NCBI GenBank assembly: GCA_028282545.1
Contig: JANQHT010000118.1
Span: 1-64,000 of the forward strand
Source of the DNA: Spirochaetales bacterium
Lineage (GTDB): Bacteria; Spirochaetota; Spirochaetia; DSM-27196; Alkalispirochaetaceae
Reading direction: 5' to 3'
Length of the DNA stretch: 64,000 bases
Shown here: positions 1 to 25,938 of the stretch, in pieces
Layout of the letters: each line of letters opens with the position of its first letter
How positions within the stretch are numbered: position 1 is the first letter of the stretch
The notes under the pieces: model-generated
Database searches by the model: none
What the model saw: only the letters and a program-made list of their open reading frames with translations
What the model was told of the DNA's origin: nothing
Program-made: the position numbers and the translations under genes

Positions 1-202
1 CGATGCGAATTTCACCCAGGATTTGTTCCATGAGATTCAAAATAGTTCGTATCACAGGCGGATGCAAGCTGCAATTCATCACTGATGGACGGAGGGCCGC
101 GCCCGGTATTCAACTGCCGCGAATCGTAGCGAATGTGTAGCGTCCGGCGCCAAACGGTGCTATTGTTGTTTCTGTACCCCATAATAATTGGAAGGAAAAG
201 AA

Positions 203-3200
203 ATGAATTTCCAAATATGTAATTGCACGATCGCTCCCGCACACCAACGCGCCGGGAACCGGCTCTCCCCGTTCCGGAAGGTCGCGTATGCGCTGGTGGT
301 TGCCGCGTTGTTCGTTCCCCGCCTTGGGGCGGCCCCGCGGTACGCTCTGGTCATCGGCAACGGCGCCTACGATCATGTCCCCCCGTTGACAAACCCCGTG
401 AACGACGCGCGCGACGTAGCGGCAACGCTGGAGAACCTCGGGTTCGACGTGCAGCGCGTGATCGACGGTTCGCGGGGTGACCTGGAGCGCGCCATCGACT
501 CCTTTGCCGGCGGCGTGAGGGGTGCCGGCGCGGAGGCGGCGCTCTTCTTCTACGCGGGGCACGGCGTGCAGCACGAGGGCGTCAACTACCTCATCCCCGT
601 TACGGCGGACATCAACAACGAGTACGAACTGCTTGACGAAGCGGTAAGCGTGGACCGCGTGATGGACGCCCTGGACGACGCCGGCGCCGCCTTCACCATG
701 GTCGTACTGGACGCGTGCCGGGACAATCCCTTCTTCCGGAGCCGGACCGCCGGTTCGCGCGGCCTGGCCATGGTGAGCGGCGGCGGGCGGGGGAGCCTCA
801 TCGCCTTTGCCACCAGCCCCGGAGATACCGCGTCGGACGGCAGGGGGCGGAACAGTCCGTACACGGAGGCCTTTCTCCGGCACGCGACAACGCCGGGATT
901 GGAAGTGAGCAACATGATGCGCCGCGTCTACGGCACGGTCCAGGAGCTGACCAAGGGCGAACAGCGCCCGTGGATCAACGCCGGCTACGACGGCGACTTC
1001 TACCTGGTGCGCCCGGACGACCAGATCGCCCGGTCGGGGGAGCGGGCGGCACAACTCGAGGAGGACCTCTCGGCCCTCGAAGCGGAGATCGCCCGGCGCG
1101 AGGCGGAGATAGCCGCGGCGAGAAACGCCCGGGAGCGCGAGCGCCTCCAGGCGGAGCAGCAACGGGCCCGGGCGGAGGAGGCGGCCAAGCGCCTGCAGGC
1201 ACAGCAGCTCGCGGAGCTGGCGGAAGCCGCGGAAGCGGCCCTCATGCAGCAGCGGGCCAACGAACGCCTGCGCGAGGAGATGCAGCGCGAGTTCTCAACG
1301 CAGCAAGTGGCGCTCCGGCGCCAAGCGGAGGCGCGGCGGGCGGAACTGGAAGAGCTTCGCCGGAGCGGGGCCTCCGGCGCCGGATTGCAGGAGCGCTTCA
1401 CCACGCTGTCGCAGATCAACGCCGCGATTCGTGACATCGATTCGCGCTTCCAGACGATGACTGAACGGACCCTGACGGAGATCGATGCGTTGCACGACCG
1501 GCGCCGGACGGCGCTGGAAGAAGAGAACCCCATAGACCCCTGGGAGACGCCGGAGGAGTGGGGGGCGCGCCTGGCCGGATTGCGGGCCGCGATCGCCGAA
1601 GAGACGGCGGCCGAGCGTACCGCCCGCCGCCGTGAACTGGAGTCGAGTCGTGCGGCGGAACTCGAACCGCTCATCACCCAACGCGATACGGCGCGGGCGG
1701 ACCTCAACGGCCGCGACTTCGTGCTGCCGGCGGGCGCCACGCGCGTGGCGGTACGCGACTTCAACCCCTACGAGAAGCGGTTCCCGATCGTTCTCACTTC
1801 CACCGCGGAGGATACGCCCTTTTCCGCGTCGCTCTCCTATGAAATTACCTCCCGGGACCGCACCGTGCTCAGGGAGGAGTACTACCGCGTCTTCAGCGCG
1901 GACCGGGCGGGCGGTCTTGCCGGTGAGTTCTCCTACCGCGTGTACGAACTGTACCCCGACGTGTGGGCGGTGGTACCGCACGAGGCGCGCGTGGTCAACT
2001 TGCTGGAGGGGGACGCCGTGCTCGCCGAATCGTCGGGGGGTGCGGAGTTTCTGGTGCACACCGACGCGGAATCGGGCCGCGCGGAACAATGGGCCGGCGC
2101 CGTGGAAGTCCAGGCGCGCACGGCGGAGAGTTTCCGGCCGGAGGACGACTCCACACGCCTCGTGCACACGCGCAACGGGAACACGCTGATCGTGGTGCCG
2201 CGGCGGGCAGACTTGGGACGCGTCTCGCTCCGGCTTGAGAACGGGAAGACCATGGCGCTCCCCATCGGCCCCGGGTTCAACCCGCCGGTGCGCGTAAGCG
2301 GCGGAAGGAGTGACGCCGCCGGAGCCCTCCTCATCGTGGCCTCCATGGCACCGGAGACGCGCCTGGAGGGTGTGGGAGACCCGCGCGATTTCCCGCGGGG
2401 CGGCACCGCGCGCATTCCGCTCTCCGATCTCCCCGATGCAATCACCATTCGTAACCGGTATATCGAGAAACCCCTTGAGATCGCCCTGGAACGGGGCGCC
2501 ACGGGAACGGTCTGGGTGGACGGCGCCGCGGTGACGCAACCGACCCTCGGCCGGGTGCGGCTCCACGGCCACGACGGGCCGTGTATCGTGGTGGATGCTC
2601 ACGGCCGGATGGTGTGGGACGCCCGGGAGACCGCGCGCTTTGCAACGAACAACGGCGGGTATAGCGTTCCCGTGCGGCCCGGGGAGTATACCGTCGGGTA
2701 CGCGGAGGAGAACGACCCCTACGTGGCGGCCGCGGAACGCGTTACGGTAGAACTCGGCGCGACAAGCGCGCTCCGGCTGGAGGCGCCGCCAATGAGTACG
2801 CGCCTGGAACTGGGCCGGGCCCGGGCGGCGCACACCCGCACGGAAGCGTCGCTCGCCCGCGGGCGGACGCGGCGCATCGCCGGGTGGTCGCTCATCGGCG
2901 CCGGGGTGCTCAGCCTCGGAGGGAGCGCCTACAGCTACGTGCAAGGCACGGCGGCGCGGGCGAACTACGACGACGCCCGGCACACCGCTACCGCGGAAGG
3001 GTACCGGGCCGACGCGGCCCGGTGGGGCCTCACCTTCAGCATTACCGCGGTTGCAGGAGCGCTCCTGGATGCGGGCGGCGTGGCGCTGCTAAGCGCCGGC
3101 CCCAACCGGGCGCAGCTCAACCGGCAACGGAACGAACTGGAACGACAAATAGACGCGCTCAGCGCGCGCTTCGCCGCGGAGACGGCGCAAAAGCCCATCC

Positions 3201-3235
3201 TCGGTACGGAGTTTACCCCGGAGGCAGACCGATGA
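203..3235 (+). CDS. Caspase-like (peptidase C14) exported protein
   Basis: About 1010 residues. ATG at 203 follows a GGAAGG ribosome site. A hydrophobic stretch (about residues 27-44) suggests export or membrane anchoring. The caspase fold follows directly (YALVIGNGAY, then the catalytic dyad His120 in YAGHGVQ and Cys172 in LDACRDNPF), both intact. A long Glu/Arg/Ala-rich coiled coil spans about 270-440. A large part with no recognised domain comes next, and two hydrophobic segments lie near the C-terminus (IAGWSLIGAGVLSLGG and a later one). The stop overlaps the start of the DGR target lipoprotein (ATGA), so the two are probably co-translated. Bacterial metacaspase-like proteins act as proteases in signalling or conflict systems. 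The substrate here is unknown. Confidence 0.85.
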   Translation: MNFQICNCTIAPAHQRAGNRLSPFRKVAYALVVAALFVPRLGAAPRYALVIGNGAYDHVPPLTNPVNDARDVAATLENLGFDVQRVIDGSRGDLERAIDSFAGGVRGAGAEAALFFYAGHGVQHEGVNYLIPVTADINNEYELLDEAVSVDRVMDALDDAGAAFTMVVLDACRDNPFFRSRTAGSRGLAMVSGGGRGSLIAFATSPGDTASDGRGRNSPYTEAFLRHATTPGLEVSNMMRRVYGTVQELTKGEQRPWINAGYDGDFYLVRPDDQIARSGERAAQLEEDLSALEAEIARREAEIAAARNARERERLQAEQQRARAEEAAKRLQAQQLAELAEAAEAALMQQRANERLREEMQREFSTQQVALRRQAEARRAELEELRRSGASGAGLQERFTTLSQINAAIRDIDSRFQTMTERTLTEIDALHDRRRTALEEENPIDPWETPEEWGARLAGLRAAIAEETAAERTARRRELESSRAAELEPLITQRDTARADLNGRDFVLPAGATRVAVRDFNPYEKRFPIVLTSTAEDTPFSASLSYEITSRDRTVLREEYYRVFSADRAGGLAGEFSYRVYELYPDVWAVVPHEARVVNLLEGDAVLAESSGGAEFLVHTDAESGRAEQWAGAVEVQARTAESFRPEDDSTRLVHTRNGNTLIVVPRRADLGRVSLRLENGKTMALPIGPGFNPPVRVSGGRSDAAGALLIVASMAPETRLEGVGDPRDFPRGGTARIPLSDLPDAITIRNRYIEKPLEIALERGATGTVWVDGAAVTQPTLGRVRLHGHDGPCIVVDAHGRMVWDARETARFATNNGGYSVPVRPGEYTVGYAEENDPYVAAAERVTVELGATSALRLEAPPMSTRLELGRARAAHTRTEASLARGRTRRIAGWSLIGAGVLSLGGSAYSYVQGTAARANYDDARHTATAEGYRADAARWGLTFSITAVAGALLDAGGVALLSAGPNRAQLNRQRNELERQIDALSARFAAETAQKPILGTEFTPEADR

Positions 3236-4422
3236 AGGGCCTGATCCGCACGGTACCGATCCTTCTTGCCGCCCTGATCCTCACCGGCTGCCCGGACATG
3301 TTCGTGGAGGGGATGAACAACCCGGTAGACCCCGAGGCGGACGCCTATCAGGGGTACGAGACCGTTTCCAACGCGGACGATATCTCGTCCAATTCGCAAA
3401 GGGGCGCCCAATGGGTGATCTTCACCGCAAGCGAGGTGGACGGCGCTACCGCGTACCACCTACAGGTGACAACTACCGGGGACGGCGCCTTTGCCGCGCC
3501 CATTGTGGACGACGCCTCGTTTTCGACCAACGTCATGGCCCCCACCGGAAATCTCATCGCGAACACCACCTACCGCTGGCGCGCCCGCGCCCAAAAGGGC
3601 GGCGCCTGGGGCGCGTGGTCGGAGGCGGCCACCGCGATCTTTGCGGACACGGCCGGCATGAGCCCGGCGGACGGTGCGAGCACCACCGACACGACGCCCA
3701 CCTTGAGCTGGGACGCGGTGGATGGAGCAGACCGCTACGAGGTGCAGATCGCGGAAACGGCGGCGGGAGTCCCGAGTGCGACCCCGGTAACGGTGAACGC
3801 CCCGGTGCGCTCCTACACGTGGCCCACGGCGCTTTCGGCCGGCGACAAACTCTACTGGCGGGTGAAAGCCGTGGCCGCAGGCGGCACCGAGGGCGCCTAT
3901 AGTTCGATCGCATCGGTGACGAAAAGTTATGGGATTGGCGATACGGGCCCCGCCGGGGGCATCGTCTTCTACGACAAGGGAAGCTACTCCGGCGGGTGGC
4001 GCTACCTGGAGGCGGCGCCTAGTGACATCGACGTGTCCGGAGATTACACCCACGTATGGGGAGGCTACGGAACGAGTGTGGGCGGAACCGGCACCGCCGT
4101 CGGCACGGGACAGGCCAATACGACGGCGATCGTCGCCAAGTACGGGACGAGCGATCCGTACAATTATACGGGGAACTACGCGGCGCGGCTCTGTGACCAA
4201 TACAGCTACGGCGGCTACAACGACTGGTTCCTGCCCAGCAAAGATGAGCTGAACCTGATGTACCAGAATAGAGGAGTTATTGGAGGTTTTGCGGCACACT
4301 ACTATTGGAGTTCCTCCGAGTACCGTTCTAGCAACGCGTGGTATCAGTACTTCTACTTTGGCTCCCAGTACTACGGCCTCAAGAGCAGCAACCTACGAGT
4401 TCGGGCGTGCCGGGCTTTTTAG
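3232..4422 (+). CDS. DGR target: Fn3/DUF1566 surface lipoprotein
   Basis: 396 residues. The lipoprotein signal is MKGLIRTVPILLAALILTGC with the lipidated Cys at 20. Two fibronectin-III-like units follow (about 55-150 and 150-235, each with a YRWR or YWRV strand). The C-terminal domain is of DUF1566 type: GPAGGIVFYDKG, then GYNDWFLPSKDELNLMY, YWSSSE and VRACR. This C-type-lectin-like fold is a usual DGR display scaffold. The last 47 codons are the variable repeat. The protein is likely anchored in a membrane and shows a variable binding face, comparable to the Treponema denticola TvpA system. The start overlaps the caspase gene stop. The ligand is unknown. Confidence 0.9.
   Translation: MKGLIRTVPILLAALILTGCPDMFVEGMNNPVDPEADAYQGYETVSNADDISSNSQRGAQWVIFTASEVDGATAYHLQVTTTGDGAFAAPIVDDASFSTNVMAPTGNLIANTTYRWRARAQKGGAWGAWSEAATAIFADTAGMSPADGASTTDTTPTLSWDAVDGADRYEVQIAETAAGVPSATPVTVNAPVRSYTWPTALSAGDKLYWRVKAVAAGGTEGAYSSIASVTKSYGIGDTGPAGGIVFYDKGSYSGGWRYLEAAPSDIDVSGDYTHVWGGYGTSVGGTGTAVGTGQANTTAIVAKYGTSDPYNYTGNYAARLCDQYSYGGYNDWFLPSKDELNLMYQNRGVIGGFAAHYYWSSSEYRSSNAWYQYFYFGSQYYGLKSSNLRVRACRAF
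4279..4419 (+). repeat. DGR variable repeat (VR)
   Basis: 47 codons that align with the template repeat at 5066-5203. By hand alignment about 20 substitutions lie at template adenines (AAC to TAC, CAC, AGC, TCC, CTC and so on), the signature of DGR adenine mutagenesis. About 11 further differences are not at adenines, and VR has one extra codon (GGC near 4375). VR ends at the stop codon of the lipoprotein. Confidence 0.9.
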
Positions 4423-4446
4423 CTATTTACCTATTTGACTATTTTT

Positions 4447-4470
4447 GTCCGGCGGCGATAGCCGCCGGAC
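4447..4470. other. Perfect hairpin just downstream of VR
   Basis: GTCCGGCGGC, a GATA loop, then GCCGCCGGAC: a 10-bp perfect stem 25 bases past the end of the target gene. DGRs such as that of phage BPP-1 need a short hairpin/cruciform just after VR for retrohoming, so this is the candidate target-site structure. A run of five T follows six bases after the stem, so it could also end the lipoprotein transcript. Confidence 0.75.
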
Positions 4471-4492
4471 GGACGATTTTTGGGAGGGGGTT

Positions 4493-4965
4493 TTGGCGCT
4501 GTACTACGATCTGCCCGTGTATCAGGACACCTACCGCCTCATCCTCAAGATTTTCGAGCTGACGAAAGACTTTCCCCGGGAGTACAAGTACACGTTGGGC
4601 CAGGATATGAAGCGGGACGGGCTGGTGTTGGTGCGCAGCATCTATAGGCCTGGTCGGTGCTGACGCACCTGCTCGGCCATGCATCCGGAGCCAACAAAAC
4701 GAAGGAGAAGCGGGAACACCTGGAGCAGTTTCTTGACGACTTCGAGATCTTGAAGCTGGAAGTTCGGCTCTGTACGGACCTCAGGATTCTCTCACTCAAG
4801 AAACAGGCGCAGGTGGCGGCGCTCATGGAGGGAATCGGGAAGCAGATTACCGGGTGGCGGAATGCCAACCCGAAATTGCCTGAATCTGTTCGGTCACGAC
4901 CGAACAGAGCGATGTCGGCGCGTTCCTCGTTCCTGCGGTACGCGCCTTATGCGAGTTTAGGATAA
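4493..4965 (+). pseudogene. avd: avd (DGR accessory protein), split by a 41-nt insertion
   Basis: Avd is a four-helix-bundle protein that binds the DGR reverse transcriptase and is needed for mutagenic homing. The first half starts at TTG 4493 after GGGAGGGGG (LALYYDLPVYQDTYRL, then YKYTLGQDMKRDGLVLVRSIYR) and stops at 4663. The second half continues from GCCAACAAAACG at 4690 (ANKTKEKREHLEQFLDDFE, then RLCTDLRILSLKKQAQ and GKQITGWRNA). Removing bases 4649-4689 restores one frame across a conserved junction. As it stands, the second half could start only at GTG 4657, which overlaps the first stop (GTGCTGA), so coupled translation of two halves is possible. The tail after about GWRNANPKLP looks unrelated. 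Confidence 0.8.
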
Positions 4966-4979
4966 AAGCGGCGGGGGGA

Positions 4980-5007
4980 CCGCCGGCGCGGGAATCCACG
5001 CCGGCGG
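4980..5007. other. Hairpin between avd and the template repeat
   Basis: CCGCCGGCG and CGCCGGCGG form a perfect 9-bp stem around a 10-base loop (CGGGAATCCA). It lies 58 bases before the template repeat. It may be a terminator for avd (no T-run is seen) or a fold at the 5' side of the template RNA. Confidence 0.5.
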
Positions 5008-5065
5008 TATGCGAGCACGGCGGAAGCGGGCGCTTCCGTTCGTCACCACGTCTCCGCGGAAAACG

Positions 5066-5203
5066 GTTGGAGGTTTTGCGTCAAACAACTATTGGAGTTC
5101 TTCGGAGAACAGTTCTAACAACGCGTGGAACCAGAACTTCAACAATGGCAACCGGAACAACAACAAGAACAACAACAAACGGGTTCGGGCTGTCCGGGGT
5201 TTT
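5066..5203 (+). repeat. DGR template repeat (TR)
   Basis: 46 codon-like units, very rich in AAC, matching the VR of the upstream lipoprotein. It starts with GTTGGAGGTTTTGCG and ends with a G/C-rich IMH*-like tail (CGGGTTCGGGC, then TTT). AAC is the usual DGR mutable codon because changes at its two adenines reach many residues without making stops. TR is normally a noncoding RNA copied by the DGR reverse transcriptase. An open frame through it is incidental. It sits 99 bases before the reverse transcriptase start. Confidence 0.92.
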
Positions 5204-5302
5204 ATCCTTGAGCCGGTGTGGGGAACGGGCCGTCATCACTTTGGTGGCGAGCCCGGCCTTGCACGTCTTTGTCGTATGCGGTCCGGCTCCCACACCTGAC
5301 TG

Positions 5303-6553
5303 ATGAGTACCGCTCAGCTGGAATTGTTTCCGCCGCCGTCGGTACCACTGGAAGAGGTCTTTGCGGCCTACTTCAGTTGCCGAAAAAATAAGCGCCGCAC
5401 CGCCAACGCCGTCGCCTTTGAGGTCAACTATGAGGAGAATCTCGTCGCGTTGTGGCGGGAGATCAACGACGGCATCTACCGGCCGGGAAGGTCGTTGGCG
5501 TTTATCGTTACCAAACCGGTTAAGCGGGAGATATTCGCCGCCGACTTCCGCGACCGCGTCGTCCACCACCTGATTATCAACAAGATCAACCATCTCTTTG
5601 AACGGGGGTTCATCCACGACAGTTACGCCTGTAGGGTGGGGCGGGGCACCCACTTCGGCATCAATCGCGTGGACCGCTTCATTCGCCGCGAGACGGCCAA
5701 CTATGCCCGGGAGGCGTGGATACTGAAGCTCGATATCAAAGGGTTTTTCATGAGTATCGACCGGGGGTTGCTCTTTTCACGGCTGAAGGCGTTTCTGCGA
5801 GAACGGTATCACGCGCCGGACCGGGCGTTGGTTATCGATCTGTGCCGTCAGACCATTTACGCGGACCCCGCGCGCAACTGCGTTATCCGGGGACGGAGGG
5901 GCGACTGGAACGGGCTTCCACCGGACAAGAGCCTTTTTTTGGCGAAGGAGGGGTGCGGGCTGCCAATCGGGAATCTCACGAGTCAGGTCTTTGCCAACTT
6001 CTATTTGAATCCGCTGGATCACTTCGTGAAGCATACCCTCGGCTTCCGTTCATACGGCAGGTACGTCGACGATTTCGTGATCGTGCACCGCGAGCGCGGG
6101 ATGCTTGAGGCGTCAATACCGGTGATTCGAGATTACCTTGCCCGGGCGTTGCGGCTCGTCCTTCATCCCCGAAAGATCTACCTGCAGCCGGCGAGGCGGG
6201 GTGTGCGATACCTGGGCGTCGTCATCAAACCGGGGCGGATCACCATCGCCAACCGGACCAAGGGGAACTTCGTCGCCGCGGTGGAACGGTTCAATCGCGT
6301 TGTAGATGCCGGCAAACCATCGTGCGACGATCGGGGGCAATTCCAATCCGGCGTCAACAGCTACCTGGGTATCCTGCGGCACTACGCTACGGCCCACCTT
6401 CGTGTTGCGGTCTTGCGCCGCGTCTCGCCGTGGTGGTGGCGCCGGTTTTGCTTGATCGGCGTGCATCACGGGACAAGAACGGTACCGCTTCGCGTCGTCG
6501 CCCAAGCACCATCTTCGTTTCCGCGCTATACTGTTCCGTGGACCCAAACGTGA
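5303..6553 (+). CDS. DGR reverse transcriptase
   Basis: 416 residues, ATG at 5303. Finger motifs (FRDRVVHHLI, KLDIKGFFMSID) are followed by the DGR hallmark IGNLTSQ (Gly223 to Gln228, replacing the QGxxxSP of other reverse transcriptases), then the catalytic YVDD at 254-257. The thumb region continues to SPWWWRRF. The enzyme copies TR RNA with adenine errors and drives VR replacement together with Avd. The last 35 or so residues come from DNA that includes the promoter and leader of the next gene (6504-6553), so the native C-terminus seems to have been replaced when that cassette arrived. All catalytic motifs are present. Confidence 0.93.
   Translation: MSTAQLELFPPPSVPLEEVFAAYFSCRKNKRRTANAVAFEVNYEENLVALWREINDGIYRPGRSLAFIVTKPVKREIFAADFRDRVVHHLIINKINHLFERGFIHDSYACRVGRGTHFGINRVDRFIRRETANYAREAWILKLDIKGFFMSIDRGLLFSRLKAFLRERYHAPDRALVIDLCRQTIYADPARNCVIRGRRGDWNGLPPDKSLFLAKEGCGLPIGNLTSQVFANFYLNPLDHFVKHTLGFRSYGRYVDDFVIVHRERGMLEASIPVIRDYLARALRLVLHPRKIYLQPARRGVRYLGVVIKPGRITIANRTKGNFVAAVERFNRVVDAGKPSCDDRGQFQSGVNSYLGILRHYATAHLRVAVLRRVSPWWWRRFCLIGVHHGTRTVPLRVVAQAPSSFPRYTVPWTQT
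6504..6532 (+). promoter_or_regulatory. Family A promoter (copy A1)
   Basis: AAGCAC (6504-6509), a 17-base spacer, then TATACT (6527-6532). The same layout precedes all four family A genes. The GTG start lies five bases after the -10 box, so the transcript is probably leaderless. The element lies inside the 3' end of the reverse transcriptase gene. Confidence 0.65.
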
Positions 6554-6942
6554 TGGAACTGTCCGGCGAACAGCTACAGAAGATTGTAGACGCGGTGGCG
6601 GAGCGCTTGGGCGTGGTGCGCACCGCGGACCCGGCGACACTTGAAGGCGCCGTAGCGCCGGAGGGCGCGGCCCCCCCGGAGAGCGGCGTCCCCGGGTGGC
6701 CGAGTCCACCCATGGTGCAACTGCCGCCGGAGTTCTACCGGAGCCAACGGGAGATCGCCGAACGCGTCGCCCGTCTCGAGGAACGCTTTGTCCGGATAGA
6801 CGAGCGCTTTGACGATCTCATCCACTATGTAGACAAGCGGTTTGAGCAGATGGATAAGCGCTTTGCCACACTGCAGTGGACGATAGGCATCGGGTTCACG
6901 GTGGTTACCGTGCTGATGACGGTCTACAACTTCGTCGGATAG
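6538..6942 (+). CDS. Family A small coiled-coil, tail-anchored protein A1
   Basis: 134 residues from GTG 6538 (or 129 from ATG 6553). Order: N-terminal helix MELSGEQLQKIVDAVAERLG, an Ala/Pro-rich linker, a conserved block MVQLPPEFYRSQREIAERVAR, a coiled coil made of DKRFEQM-like heptads, and a C-terminal helix (WTIGIGFTVVTVLMTVYNFVG) that should anchor it in the inner membrane. GTG is favoured because GTG-GAx-xxA-AAY before the ATG is kept in frame in all four A genes. The function is not known. The layout resembles DUF1640/CCDC90 or XhlA-like proteins, but no assignment is made. Confidence 0.7.
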   Translation: MDPNVMELSGEQLQKIVDAVAERLGVVRTADPATLEGAVAPEGAAPPESGVPGWPSPPMVQLPPEFYRSQREIAERVARLEERFVRIDERFDDLIHYVDKRFEQMDKRFATLQWTIGIGFTVVTVLMTVYNFVG

Positions 6943-6969
6943 CGTTCGGGGCTCGATGTGGTCTATACT
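6941..6969 (+). promoter_or_regulatory. Family B promoter (copy B1)
   Basis: AGCGTT (6941-6946) overlaps the TAG stop of A1. A 17-base spacer and TATACT (6964-6969) follow. The leader is about 40 bases, with GAGGGAGGG before the ATG at 7015. The same AGCGTT/TATACT pair precedes the B gene at 25426. Confidence 0.65.
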
Positions 6970-7014
6970 TCAATCAACGTGCGTCCCCCGTCCCTATCGT
7001 GAGGGAGGGCACCC

Positions 7015-7380
7015 ATGAGTAGCGCAATGGAACTTTCGCGGGAATCACTTGAGACTATTGGATCGTTTGTGCGACGCAATCTTCCAACGTGGCTTGAGCA
7101 GATCGACCAATCCGGTCGCCGTAACTGGGAACTCCAACTCACCGAGCGTATCGTTCGCGTGGAGGAAGAACTGAAAGCGCAACGGGAGCTGATGCAACAG
7201 GGGTTCGCGGTCATGGACAAGCGCTTTGAGGATCTCATCCATCAAATCGACAAACGGTTTGAACAGGTGGACGGGCGCTTTGCACAGATCGACAGACGTT
7301 TTTCTACGGTGCAGTGGACGATAGGCATCGGGTTCACCGTGATCACCGTTCTGATGTCGCTCTACAACTTCGTCGGTTAG
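7015..7380 (+). CDS. Family B small coiled-coil, tail-anchored protein B1
   Basis: 121 residues. The N-terminus MSSAMELSRESLETIGSFVR is followed by WLEQIDQSGRRNWELQLTER, then the block VRVEEELKAQRELMQQGFAVM. Heptads (DKRFEDL, DKRFEQV, DGRFAQI) lead to the C-terminal membrane helix WTIGIGFTVITVLMSLYNFVG. The tail (DKRF repeats plus helix) is shared with family A but the N-terminal half is different, so the two families look like two heads on one tail module. The ribosome site GGGAGGG is good. The function is unknown. Confidence 0.72.
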   Translation: MSSAMELSRESLETIGSFVRRNLPTWLEQIDQSGRRNWELQLTERIVRVEEELKAQRELMQQGFAVMDKRFEDLIHQIDKRFEQVDGRFAQIDRRFSTVQWTIGIGFTVITVLMSLYNFVG

Positions 7381-7401
7381 TAATCAACGCCCGTTTGTGG
7401 A

Positions 7402-7407
7402 TATACT
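7402..7407 (+). promoter_or_regulatory. -10 box of copy B2
   Basis: TATACT at the same distance from the start codon as in the other B copies. The usual AGCGTT -35 box is not present here (AGTAAT instead), so this promoter may be weaker. Confidence 0.5.
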
Positions 7408-7452
7408 GCAATTGGCGGATGCACTTCGTTCTTACCGGGTCGGAGGGCATCC

Positions 7453-7743
7453 ATGAGTAGTGCAATGGAGCTTTCGCGGGAATCATTGGAGACAATCGGA
7501 ACGTTCGTTCGCGGCAATCTCGCGGCGTGGCTGCAAGAGATAGAGCAGCCGTCTCGCCGTGACTGGGAACTGCAACTCACCGAGCGGATCGTCCGCGTAG
7601 AGGAAGAACTCAAAGCGCAACGGGAACTGATGCAACAGGGTTTCGCGGCGATGGACAAACGGTTTTCAACGGTACAGTGGACGATCGGCGTCGGGTTCAC
7701 GCTCATCACGGTTCTTGTGTCCGTGTACAACTTCGTCAGATAG
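7453..7743 (+). CDS. Family B small coiled-coil protein B2 (shortest copy)
   Basis: 96 residues. It is very close to B1 at the N-terminus (MSSAMELSRESLETIGTFVR; SRRDWELQLTERIVRVEEELK) but carries only one DKRF unit before the membrane helix (WTIGVGFTLITVLVSVYNFVR). Copy B3 near 25 kb has about ten such units, so the number of heptads is the main length difference within the family. The function is unknown. Confidence 0.72.
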   Translation: MSSAMELSRESLETIGTFVRGNLAAWLQEIEQPSRRDWELQLTERIVRVEEELKAQRELMQQGFAAMDKRFSTVQWTIGVGFTLITVLVSVYNFVR

Positions 7744-7775
7744 CGTTGGGGCCCGGTTTTGTGTATACGTCAGTC
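7741..7775 (+). other. Decayed family B promoter
   Basis: After B2 the sequence TAGCGTTGGGGCCCGG, TTTT and TATACGTCAGTCA lines up with the B3 promoter region (TAGCGTT, GGTTTT, TATACTTCAATCA). The spacing is slightly altered and the -10 box is TATACG. No B gene follows: a family A promoter and gene begin instead. It is best read as the trace of a deleted B cassette. Confidence 0.5.
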
Positions 7776-7783
7776 ATCCGATG

Positions 7784-7812
7784 AAGCACGATACCCCGTC
7801 TTGCGCTATACT
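7784..7812 (+). promoter_or_regulatory. Family A promoter (copy A2)
   Basis: AAGCAC (7784-7789), 17 bases, TATACT (7807-7812), then five bases to GTG 7818. This is the leaderless arrangement seen at the other A copies. Confidence 0.65.
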
Positions 7813-7817
7813 CATAT

Positions 7818-8285
7818 GTGGAACCAAACGTGATGGAACTGTCCAACGAACAACTCCAAAAGATCGTAGACGCGGTGACGGAGCGCCTAGGCGCGGTGCC
7901 CACCGCGGACCCGGGGCCTGAAGGCGCCGTAGCGCCGGAGGGCGCGGCTCCCCCGGAGGATAGCGTTCCCGGGCGGCAAAGCGTCCCCATGGTGCAATTG
8001 CCGCCGGAGTTCTACCGGAGCCAGCGGGAGATCGCCGAACGCGTCGCCCGTCACGATGAACGCCTTGACCAGATCGACAAGCGCTTCGACGAACTCATCC
8101 ACTATGTGGACAAACGGTTCGAGCAAATGGACAAACGTTTCGACGACCTGATTCGCTACATGGACAAGCGCTTCGATGATCTCATCCACTATGTGGACAG
8201 GCGCTTTGTCACGATGCAGTGGACGATCGGGATCGGATTTACCGTGGTTACCGTTCTGATGACGGTGTACAACTTCATCGGCTGA
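7818..8285 (+). CDS. Family A small coiled-coil, tail-anchored protein A2
   Basis: 155 residues from GTG 7818. It keeps the A head (MELSNEQLQKIVDAVTERLG), the linker, and the block MVQLPPEFYRSQREIAERVAR. It then has more heptads than A1 (DKRFDEL, DKRFEQM, DKRFDDL, DKRFDDL, DRRF), with LIHYV and LIRYM connectors, before the membrane helix WTIGIGFTVVTVLMTVYNFIG. A hairpin and an Rpn remnant follow. The function is unknown. Confidence 0.7.
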   Translation: MEPNVMELSNEQLQKIVDAVTERLGAVPTADPGPEGAVAPEGAAPPEDSVPGRQSVPMVQLPPEFYRSQREIAERVARHDERLDQIDKRFDELIHYVDKRFEQMDKRFDDLIRYMDKRFDDLIHYVDRRFVTMQWTIGIGFTVVTVLMTVYNFIG

Positions 8286-8316
8286 CGCGCGCGGCTCCAA
8301 TTACCACCACCCCTTT

Positions 8317-8338
8317 CTCCTAACTATGTAGTTAGGAG
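8317..8338 (+). promoter_or_regulatory. Inverted repeat over the ribosome site of the Rpn remnant
   Basis: CTCCTAACTA, TG, TAGTTAGGAG: a perfect 10-bp palindrome. Its right arm contains the AGGAGG ribosome site for the ATG at 8344. In RNA it would hide the site. As DNA it could also be an operator. Confidence 0.5.
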
Positions 8339-8343
8339 GACGC

Positions 8344-8463
8344 ATGAAAAAGAAGCGGCAAGAGTACGGCGGTAGTGAGCCCCGGCATCTTCACGACCGC
8401 ATGTTCAATGAGATCTTCTCTACCCGGGAGGCGCAGCAGGATTTGGTGAAGTTGGCGCTACCT
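8344..8463 (+). pseudogene. N-terminal remnant of an Rpn/PD-(D/E)XK-type nuclease
   Basis: About 40 codons (MKKKRQEYGG, then HDRMFNEIFSTREAQQDLVK and LALP) resemble the start of Rpn-family recombination-promoting nucleases or putative transposases, which usually run to about 300 residues. Beyond LALPPAPDSPAA the frame enters the promoter of the next family A gene, so the rest of the gene is gone. The start and ribosome site are intact. Confidence 0.6.
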
Positions 8464-8487
8464 CCTGCACCGGACTCGCCCGCGGCA

Positions 8488-8516
8488 AAGCACGACCGGC
8501 GGTTTCGCGCTATACT
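8488..8516 (+). promoter_or_regulatory. Family A promoter (copy A3)
   Basis: AAGCAC (8488-8493), 17 bases, TATACT (8511-8516), five bases to GTG 8522. It sits where the Rpn remnant loses its homology. Confidence 0.65.
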
Positions 8517-8521
8517 GTTCC

Positions 8522-9034
8522 GTGGAATCAAACGTGATGGAACGGTCCAACGAACAACTCCAGAAGATCGTAGACGCGGTGGCCGAGCGCTTGGGCGCGG
8601 TGCACACTGCGGACCCGGCGGGGCCTGAAGGCACCGTAGCGCCGGAGGGCGCGGCAACCTCGGAGGGCGGCGGCCCCGGACGGCAAAGCGTCCCCATGGT
8701 GCAACTGCCGCCGGAGTTCTACCGGAGCCAGCGGGACATCGCCGAGCGCCTGTCCCGGGTCGAAGAACGGATGGAACAGTTCGATCGCCGTTTTGAAGAG
8801 TTGATCCACCAAATCGACAAGCGGTTCGAACAGATGGACAAACGGTTCGACGAACTCATTCACTACGTTGACAAGCGTTTCGACCAGATCGATAAACGTT
8901 TCGAACAAATCGATAAGCGCTTCGACGATCTCATCCACTATGTGGACAAGCGCTTTGCCACGCTGCAGTGGACGATCGGTATCGGATTTACCGTAATTAC
9001 CGTCCTGATGACGGTCTACACCTTCCTCGGATGA
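8522..9034 (+). CDS. Family A small coiled-coil, tail-anchored protein A3
   Basis: 170 residues from GTG 8522, the longest A copy. The head is MERSNEQLQKIVDAVAERLG, followed by the linker and the block MVQLPPEFYRSQRDIAERLSR. About seven heptads follow (DRRFEEL, DKRFEQM, DKRFDEL, DKRFDQI, DKRFEQI, DKRFDDL, DKRF), then the helix WTIGIGFTVITVLMTVYTFLG. The function is unknown. Confidence 0.7.
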   Translation: MESNVMERSNEQLQKIVDAVAERLGAVHTADPAGPEGTVAPEGAATSEGGGPGRQSVPMVQLPPEFYRSQRDIAERLSRVEERMEQFDRRFEELIHQIDKRFEQMDKRFDELIHYVDKRFDQIDKRFEQIDKRFDDLIHYVDKRFATLQWTIGIGFTVITVLMTVYTFLG

Positions 9035-25031: not shown

Positions 25032-25433
25032 GTGGAGACAAATTTCATGGAACTGTCAAACGAGCAGGTACAGAAGATCGCTGCCGCGGTGATCCGCCAA
25101 CGTGGGGCAGTACCGCTCGTGTCCGCCGGGGCAGAGGCGTTTCCCGGCGGCGCCGGATGGCGCCAACAGCCGCCTATGGTGCAACTCTCTCCGGAGTTCT
25201 ACCGGAGCCGGCGCGAAATCGCCGAACAGATAGCGCGCCATGACGAACGTTTTGTACAAATCGACAAGCGCTTTGCCGCGCTGCAGTGGACCATTGGACT
25301 GGGATTCACCTTCATCACCGTGCTCATGTCCGCGTACAACTATCGTTGGATAGCGTTCGAAGCTGGTTTTCGGCTATACTTCAATCACGAGGCGCGTCCT
25401 GTTCCTAACGGAAGAGAGGGCGCCTATGAGTAG
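25032..25433 (+). CDS. Family A small coiled-coil protein A4 (altered C-terminus)
   Basis: 133 residues from GTG 25032. It has the A head (MELSNEQVQKIAAAVIRQRG), the block MVQLSPEFYRSRREIAEQIA, few heptads, and the membrane helix WTIGLGFTFITVLMSAYNY. Compared with the other copies, one extra base near 25341 (TATCGTTGGATAG versus TTCGTCGGATAG) removes the normal stop. About 25 residues are added that read through the promoter of the next gene and overlap its first codons. The function is unknown. Confidence 0.65.
   Translation: METNFMELSNEQVQKIAAAVIRQRGAVPLVSAGAEAFPGGAGWRQQPPMVQLSPEFYRSRREIAEQIARHDERFVQIDKRFAALQWTIGLGFTFITVLMSAYNYRWIAFEAGFRLYFNHEARPVPNGREGAYE
25352..25380 (+). promoter_or_regulatory. 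Family B promoter (copy B3)
   Basis: AGCGTT (25352-25357), 17 bases, TATACT (25375-25380). The leader is about 40 bases and ends in GGAAGAGAGGGCGCCT before ATG 25426. It lies inside the extended 3' end of A4. Confidence 0.62.
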
Positions 25434-25938
25434 TGCAATGGAACTTTCGCAAGAATCACTGGAGACAATCGGAACGTTCGTTCGTAGCAACCTTGCGGTG
25501 TGGCTGCAAGGGATAGAGCAGCCGTCTCGGCGCGATTGGGAACTCCAACTCACCGAGCGGATTGTCCGCGTAGAGGAAGAGCTTAAAGCGCAACGTGAGC
25601 TTATGCAGCAGGGGTTTGCTGCCATGGACAAACGGTTCGAGCAGGTCGATAAACACTTTGAACAGGTCGACAAACGATTCGAGCAGGTAAACAAACGGTT
25701 GGAACAGGTGGACAAGAGGTTCGAGCAGATCGATAAACGGTTCGAACAGGTGGACAAGCACTTCGAACAGGTCGATAAACGATTCGAGCAGGTCGACAAA
25801 CGCTTCGACGACCTCATTCATTCCACGGACAAGCGCTTTGCCGCCATGGATCGGCGCTTCTCCTCGATGCAATGGACCATAGGTCTTGGGTTCACGGTTA
25901 TCACGCTGCTCATGTCCGCGTACAATTTCCTGGGGTGA
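25426..25938 (+). CDS. Family B small coiled-coil protein B3 (expanded heptads)
   Basis: 170 residues. The B head (MSSAMELSQESLETIGTFVR; SRRDWELQLTERIVRVEEEL) is followed by an unbroken run of about nine seven-residue units of the form D-K-R/H-F-E-Q-V/I, then DRRF and the C-terminal membrane helix (WTIGLGFTVITLLMSAYNFLG). The DNA behind the run is a series of 21-base near-repeats, so slippage or unequal exchange probably sets its length. It is a long parallel coiled coil on a tail anchor. The function is unknown. Confidence 0.72.
   Translation: MSSAMELSQESLETIGTFVRSNLAVWLQGIEQPSRRDWELQLTERIVRVEEELKAQRELMQQGFAAMDKRFEQVDKHFEQVDKRFEQVNKRLEQVDKRFEQIDKRFEQVDKHFEQVDKRFEQVDKRFDDLIHSTDKRFAAMDRRFSSMQWTIGLGFTVITLLMSAYNFLG

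Follow-up and report, generated by a model that had tools for sequence, protein, structure and literature searches.

A caspase-like protein coupled to a lipoprotein with an exchanged, DGR-varied tip in a spirochaete

The window analyzed here spans 64 kb from the start of contig C55 in a 4.28-Mb draft genome of a Spirochaetales bacterium. The contig ends at window position 1 and the open reading frame of a caspase-like protein begins at position 203, followed by a lipoprotein gene and the parts of a DGR (Table 1). The caspase stop and the lipoprotein start share four nucleotides (ATGA, 3232-3235). This is the overlap reported in the original prediction for this DNA, which had also called the two products translationally fused. 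The latter description does not hold, as these are two separate proteins that are translationally coupled rather than fused. An Rfam search of window positions 1-7500 gave no match. The small coiled-coil family that follows the reverse transcriptase (RT) has several copies in the genome (window 6538-9034 and 25035-25935, C1:64462-65395, and further copies on C22 and C43).

Table 1 Features of the caspase-lipoprotein locus, in window coordinates
Feature	Position	Strand	Basis or score
Caspase-like protein, 1010 aa, predicted to be exported	203..3235	+	Pfam, hydrophobicity, alignment with relatives
Lipoprotein, 396 aa, LTGC lipobox, Ig/fn3-type domains, DUF1566 (Lcl_C) tip	3232..4422	+	
VR of the DGR, 3' end of the lipoprotein gene	4280..4419	+	
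DGR hairpin/cruciform, 10-bp perfect stem, GATA loop, 24 nt 3' of the lipoprotein stop	4447..4470	+	z -3.7
avd (accessory variability determinant), disrupted by a 41-nt insertion at 4649-4689	4484..4900	+	bAvd profile, two frames
TR of the DGR	5067..5203	+	
DGR reverse transcriptase, YVDD intact, single copy in the genome	5303..6553	+	
Block replaced relative to the sister locus (DUF1566 tip, hairpin, avd, TR, RT)	3912..6503	+	82%-identical flanks compared with the sister locus (contig C1)
Small coiled-coil proteins with a C-terminal TM segment; family also found 3' of the sister caspase-lipoprotein pair	6538..9034	+	

The caspase-like protein contains a Peptidase_C14 domain at residues 46-266 (PF00656, E=7e-36 in Pfam). 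An intact His/Cys dyad had been predicted, and H120 and C172 are indeed invariant among the eight aligned relatives. We assign the protein to the C14 family on the basis of this domain and dyad, with proteolysis as a predicted activity. By sequence it resembles the MALT1 paracaspase (E=3e-9), and it matches the PADLOC caspase model (E=2e-11). Strong hydrophobicity is confined to a signal peptide (residues 27-45) and one segment near the C-terminus (945-963). Between the C14 domain and this C-terminal anchor lie a Glu/Arg-rich coiled-coil region and then a middle region. Together, the signal sequences, the coupling to a lipoprotein and the fusions described below suggest that the caspase leaves the cytoplasm, that its C-terminal hydrophobic region anchors it in the membrane and that its protease domain lies in the periplasm.

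The tip of the lipoprotein belongs to Lcl_C/DUF1566 (PF07603, E=8e-11 in Pfam); fn3 domains and the lipobox were also recognized. At its C-terminus, the lipoprotein is similar in sequence to HbP1, a protein of solved structure (8q4e, E=2e-9). An AlphaFold model based on a six-row alignment reached a mean pLDDT of 28, and a search of viral contigs with the lipoprotein returned only one weak match, to the fn3 region. The lectin-type end had been proposed to be the variable region of the DGR, and our comparison agrees: the VR lies at the 3' end of the gene and its differences from the TR are biased toward adenines (20 of 44 TR adenines changed versus 10 of 93 other bases; Fisher P=1.2e-5). Additional VRs in this genome were considered and rejected, as the genome has a single DUF1566 tip (the TR itself aside) and a single DGR-type RT.

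We then assessed the state of the DGR. The RT (RVT_1, E=1e-15) retains its YVDD and SQ motifs, clusters with RTs that have clean TR/VR pairs and matches phage RTs. The hairpin 3' of the VR sits at the place that corresponds to the hairpin/cruciform of the BPP-1 DGR (PMC3240598). Similar hairpins are found 3' of the VR in two related DGR loci (L114, L115) and 3' of caspase-DUF1566 open reading frames in three others (L107, L132, L044). The DGR has no intact accessory gene (avd or HRDC). The bAvd profile matches avd in two different frames (profile positions 5-46 and 39-105) because a 41-nt stretch is inserted between conserved codons. We rejected a single-base assembly error as the cause of the frameshift, since comparison with five intact Avd proteins, all of which lack the stretch, revealed this insertion. 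In a BPP-1 DGR rebuilt in E. coli, inactivation of Avd by nonsense mutations lowered activity to ~1e-9, that is, abolished it (PMC12875486).

The VR/TR pair of the window has 10 non-A mismatches and a 3-nt gap, compared with a mean of 1.0 and a maximum of 5 non-A mismatches in the 25 other TR/VR pairs from the same scan, and about 1.5 per pair in a published survey (PMC6642488). These non-A mismatches and the gap argue against recent mutagenic retrohoming. Taken with the avd insertion they indicate, short of proof of lost function, that the DGR is probably inactive now. The element is thus a DGR by descent that probably works no longer, and with avd lost the present tip would be a frozen variant.

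A second caspase-lipoprotein pair, on contig C1 of the same genome, provides a built-in control: it has the same caspase-lipoprotein frame with another tip and without a DGR. The two caspases are 46% identical and the two lipoproteins 75% identical over residues 4-234. The tip of the C1 lipoprotein is of the FGE-sulfatase type (E=1e-48), and this pair showed no DGR. At the DNA level, homology between the window and C1 covers 3316-3911 at 82%, is interrupted, and is found again from 6504 at 82%, in the coiled-coil gene 3' of both pairs. Because homology ends at 3911 and restarts at 6504, the DUF1566 tip, hairpin, avd, TR and RT must have been exchanged together. The coiled-coil gene may be a third component of the system or just part of the duplicated block.

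A genome from the same order and a different family (G021) also carries a caspase-lipoprotein pair with an FGE tip, so FGE is the likelier older state. We infer that the FGE tip is probably ancestral and that the DUF1566 tip and its DGR came in by the swap. In both the sister pair and the G021 pair the genes overlap by GTGA or TGATG. On two viral contigs (L245, L248), genes for DUF1566 proteins are accompanied by avd, clean TR/VR and RTs that are relatives of the one in the window. Such viral DUF1566-avd-RT sets are a possible source of the tip-plus-DGR cassette. The exchange suggests that a DGR and the domain that it diversifies can be inherited together and that the DGR can be lost afterwards, a point of relevance to the spread of DGR targets.

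In order to assess whether the link between caspase and tip is found elsewhere, we surveyed other Spirochaetia. Caspases of the same class are fused in one open reading frame to a DUF1566 or FGE tip in numerous loci (L044, L047, L048, L102, L106, L107, L132, L134, L141 and others), with a signal peptide in every case where the contig includes the N-terminus. Some of these fusions carry the marks of a DGR. For instance, in a genome of the window's family (G007), an exported caspase-FGE fusion ends in a VR for which all 19 VR/TR mismatches fall at A, accompanied by an HRDC accessory gene. In G093, a CASPct-FGE open reading frame lies under a DGR with 11 of 11 core mismatches at A. In three further genomes (G289, G389, G022), a caspase-DUF1566 open reading frame is followed by the hairpin and decayed avd remnants. 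The RTs of the window and of G007 fall in different supported clades, so the association of DGRs with caspases arose at least twice. Of the 29 RT loci, four lie within 6 kb of a caspase, where 0.31 would be expected (P=2e-4; three loci and P=0.003 when the window is excluded), under a simple random-placement null that ignores genome relatedness and with a count that includes caspase fragments and an RT on a 3-kb contig too fragmented for interpretation (G055, L103).

Several other arrangements were seen in the same survey. We rejected G001 (L048) as a DGR case: its caspase-DUF1566 gene adjoins an RT that resembles those of group II introns, and no TR/VR was found. Locus L132 (G389:C320, 954-4628, minus strand) encodes a 1225-aa protein that combines a caspase, RCC1-type propeller repeats and a DUF1566 tip, after which come the hairpin and a truncated avd start. 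Locus L133 (G392:C22, 243-8742, minus strand) has five exported caspases in tandem, three of them with FGE tips, and no DGR was seen near this array. For the two-gene form as well as the fused one, we saw a DUF4384/LPP20-like gene that runs into the start of the caspase gene (L043, 4431-6002; L048, 4730-6379), and a DUF4384-like gene is found 5' of the caspase in G021 and G001.

The caspase is not a constant partner. The order of caspase, DUF1566 lipoprotein and DGR, whose conservation had been proposed as a check, was found only in this genome among those surveyed. The original prediction had also named relatives that keep the DGR and lipoprotein without the caspase as evidence against it, and such relatives exist in G392 and G229 (L114, L115). 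They remove the caspase as a required part of the DGR and leave the proposal that it works with the tip unrefuted. Related lipoproteins also have non-caspase partners, whose sole resemblance to the caspase protein is the C-terminal membrane region (the first pair of L043, L005, L122). L005 (G000:C91, 1313-7492, minus strand) encodes a 265-aa protein that has just this membrane region in common with the caspase protein, followed by an ankyrin-like protein and then a lipoprotein with propeller-like repeats; it follows the same partner-lipoprotein logic with no caspase. The caspase is thus an optional component, missing in some cases both from DGR lipoproteins and from partner pairs.

These observations bear on whether the tip and the caspase have anything to do with each other. 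The DGR could have spread with a C-type-lectin tip onto a lipoprotein whose only tie to a caspase is a common operon, in which case the tip would be an adhesin unrelated to proteolysis. This would fit the movement of tip and DGR as a single cassette, the related DGRs with a visible target that act on DUF1566 lipoproteins without a caspase, and the non-caspase partners of lipoproteins of this type. Set against it are the caspases commonly fused to the same tips in one chain, the two different DGR types on or beside such fusions, and an RT-caspase linkage above simple chance expectation. We therefore consider this coincidence unlikely. The fusion of caspase and tip into one protein in relatives makes the pairing look real and a physical link between them plausible, and given that DGRs sit repeatedly and independently on or beside such fusions, an accidental link is unlikely.

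The reading that we favor, if only slightly, is a chromosomal sensor-effector module of the envelope with an exchangeable tip. The exported caspase would be anchored by its C-terminal hydrophobic region with its protease domain in the periplasm, and the co-translated lipoprotein would display the C-type-lectin-type tip on its Ig/fn3 domains. The two would form a complex in which binding of a ligand at the tip is relayed to the caspase, which would then cut substrates in the envelope or outside the cell. At this locus, a tip of the FGE type would have been replaced en bloc by a DUF1566 tip carrying its own DGR, which would have randomized the binding face through adenine-directed retrohoming. 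With the later loss of avd the DGR probably stopped working, leaving the tip as a frozen variant.

A defence or programmed-death device would use similar parts: the varied tip would recognize the surface of a phage or predator and the caspase would cause cell death or lysis. Caspase- and trypsin-linked DGR variable proteins have been proposed as conflict sensors in multicellular bacteria (PMC10907252, PMC7159879), and the PADLOC match is in keeping with such a role. The setting speaks against it. Housekeeping genes rather than a defence island adjoin the locus (the downstream neighbours encode FecR, NFACT, a macro domain, a Mur ligase, histidinol dehydrogenase and similar), and no MoxR, vWA, NACHT, TIR or Trypco gene was found among the neighbours tested, to 18.7 kb downstream. 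Moreover, the window caspase is predicted to be exported, whereas most cyanobacterial DGR proteins are predicted to be cytosolic (PMC7517822). We regard a defence role as quite improbable. Very improbable is a processing protease that trims or sheds the varied tip rather than acting downstream of it: protease and substrate would be co-translated, and between the two loci the N-terminal part of the lipoprotein has diverged less (82% nt) than the caspase, as might happen where docking or cleavage takes place, but tip and protease in one chain fit regulation better than substrate processing.

More broadly, the envelope module could belong to a distinct class of spirochaete recognition systems, in which an exported caspase is combined, as partner or in one chain, with a C-type-lectin tip that DGR cassettes recharge from time to time. 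Each cassette would arrive with a tip, sample binding variants, decay, and leave a fixed sensor. We put this forward tentatively, as a proposal that we rather doubt; if true, it would represent anticipatory recognition wired to a periplasmic caspase.

The locus had been judged little described. No open-access paper that we found combines caspase, DGR and spirochaete; a caspase linked to a DGR-varied lectin fold has already been published for cyanobacteria (PMC7517822). DGR lipoproteins of spirochaetes are known as well (PMC4891356). The targets of Treponema denticola TvpA and related DGR lipoproteins are FGE-type with no caspase mentioned (Nimkulrat et al. 2016, PMC4891356), whereas the window has a DUF1566 tip, a common DGR tip (PMC6642488). 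Metacaspase-FGE-sulfatase fusions join caspase and FGE in one protein in several phyla (Asplund-Samuelsson et al. 2012, PMC3501461), but there FGE was interpreted as an enzyme that modifies sulfatases and not as a binding tip, and DUF1566 is unmentioned. DGR-diversified conflict systems similarly place DGR-varied CLec sensors near protease effectors, caspase- and CHAT-type included (Dore et al. 2024, PMC10907252; Kaur et al. 2020, PMC7159879). These systems rely on NACHT or MoxR-vWA transducers and adapter domains, whereas the tested downstream neighbours of the window include no such partner of the VMAP/STAND type.

The closest counterparts are the cyanobacterial orthocaspase-CLec DGR variable proteins (Vallota-Eastman et al. 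2020, PMC7517822). They likewise combine a caspase-type protease with a DGR-varied C-terminal C-type-lectin fold, and they have paralogues without a DGR, as does the window pair. They differ in being one polypeptide and mostly predicted to be cytosolic, whereas the window has two co-translated proteins, predicted to be exported and lipidated, with a DUF1566 tip; the one-chain form occurs in its relatives (L102, L107, L132, L044). The new parts are the exported two-gene form and the exchange of the tip together with its DGR. The pair is a two-gene envelope form of the caspase-linked DGR proteins known from cyanobacteria, and it carries this kind of sensing into a different phylum and into the envelope.
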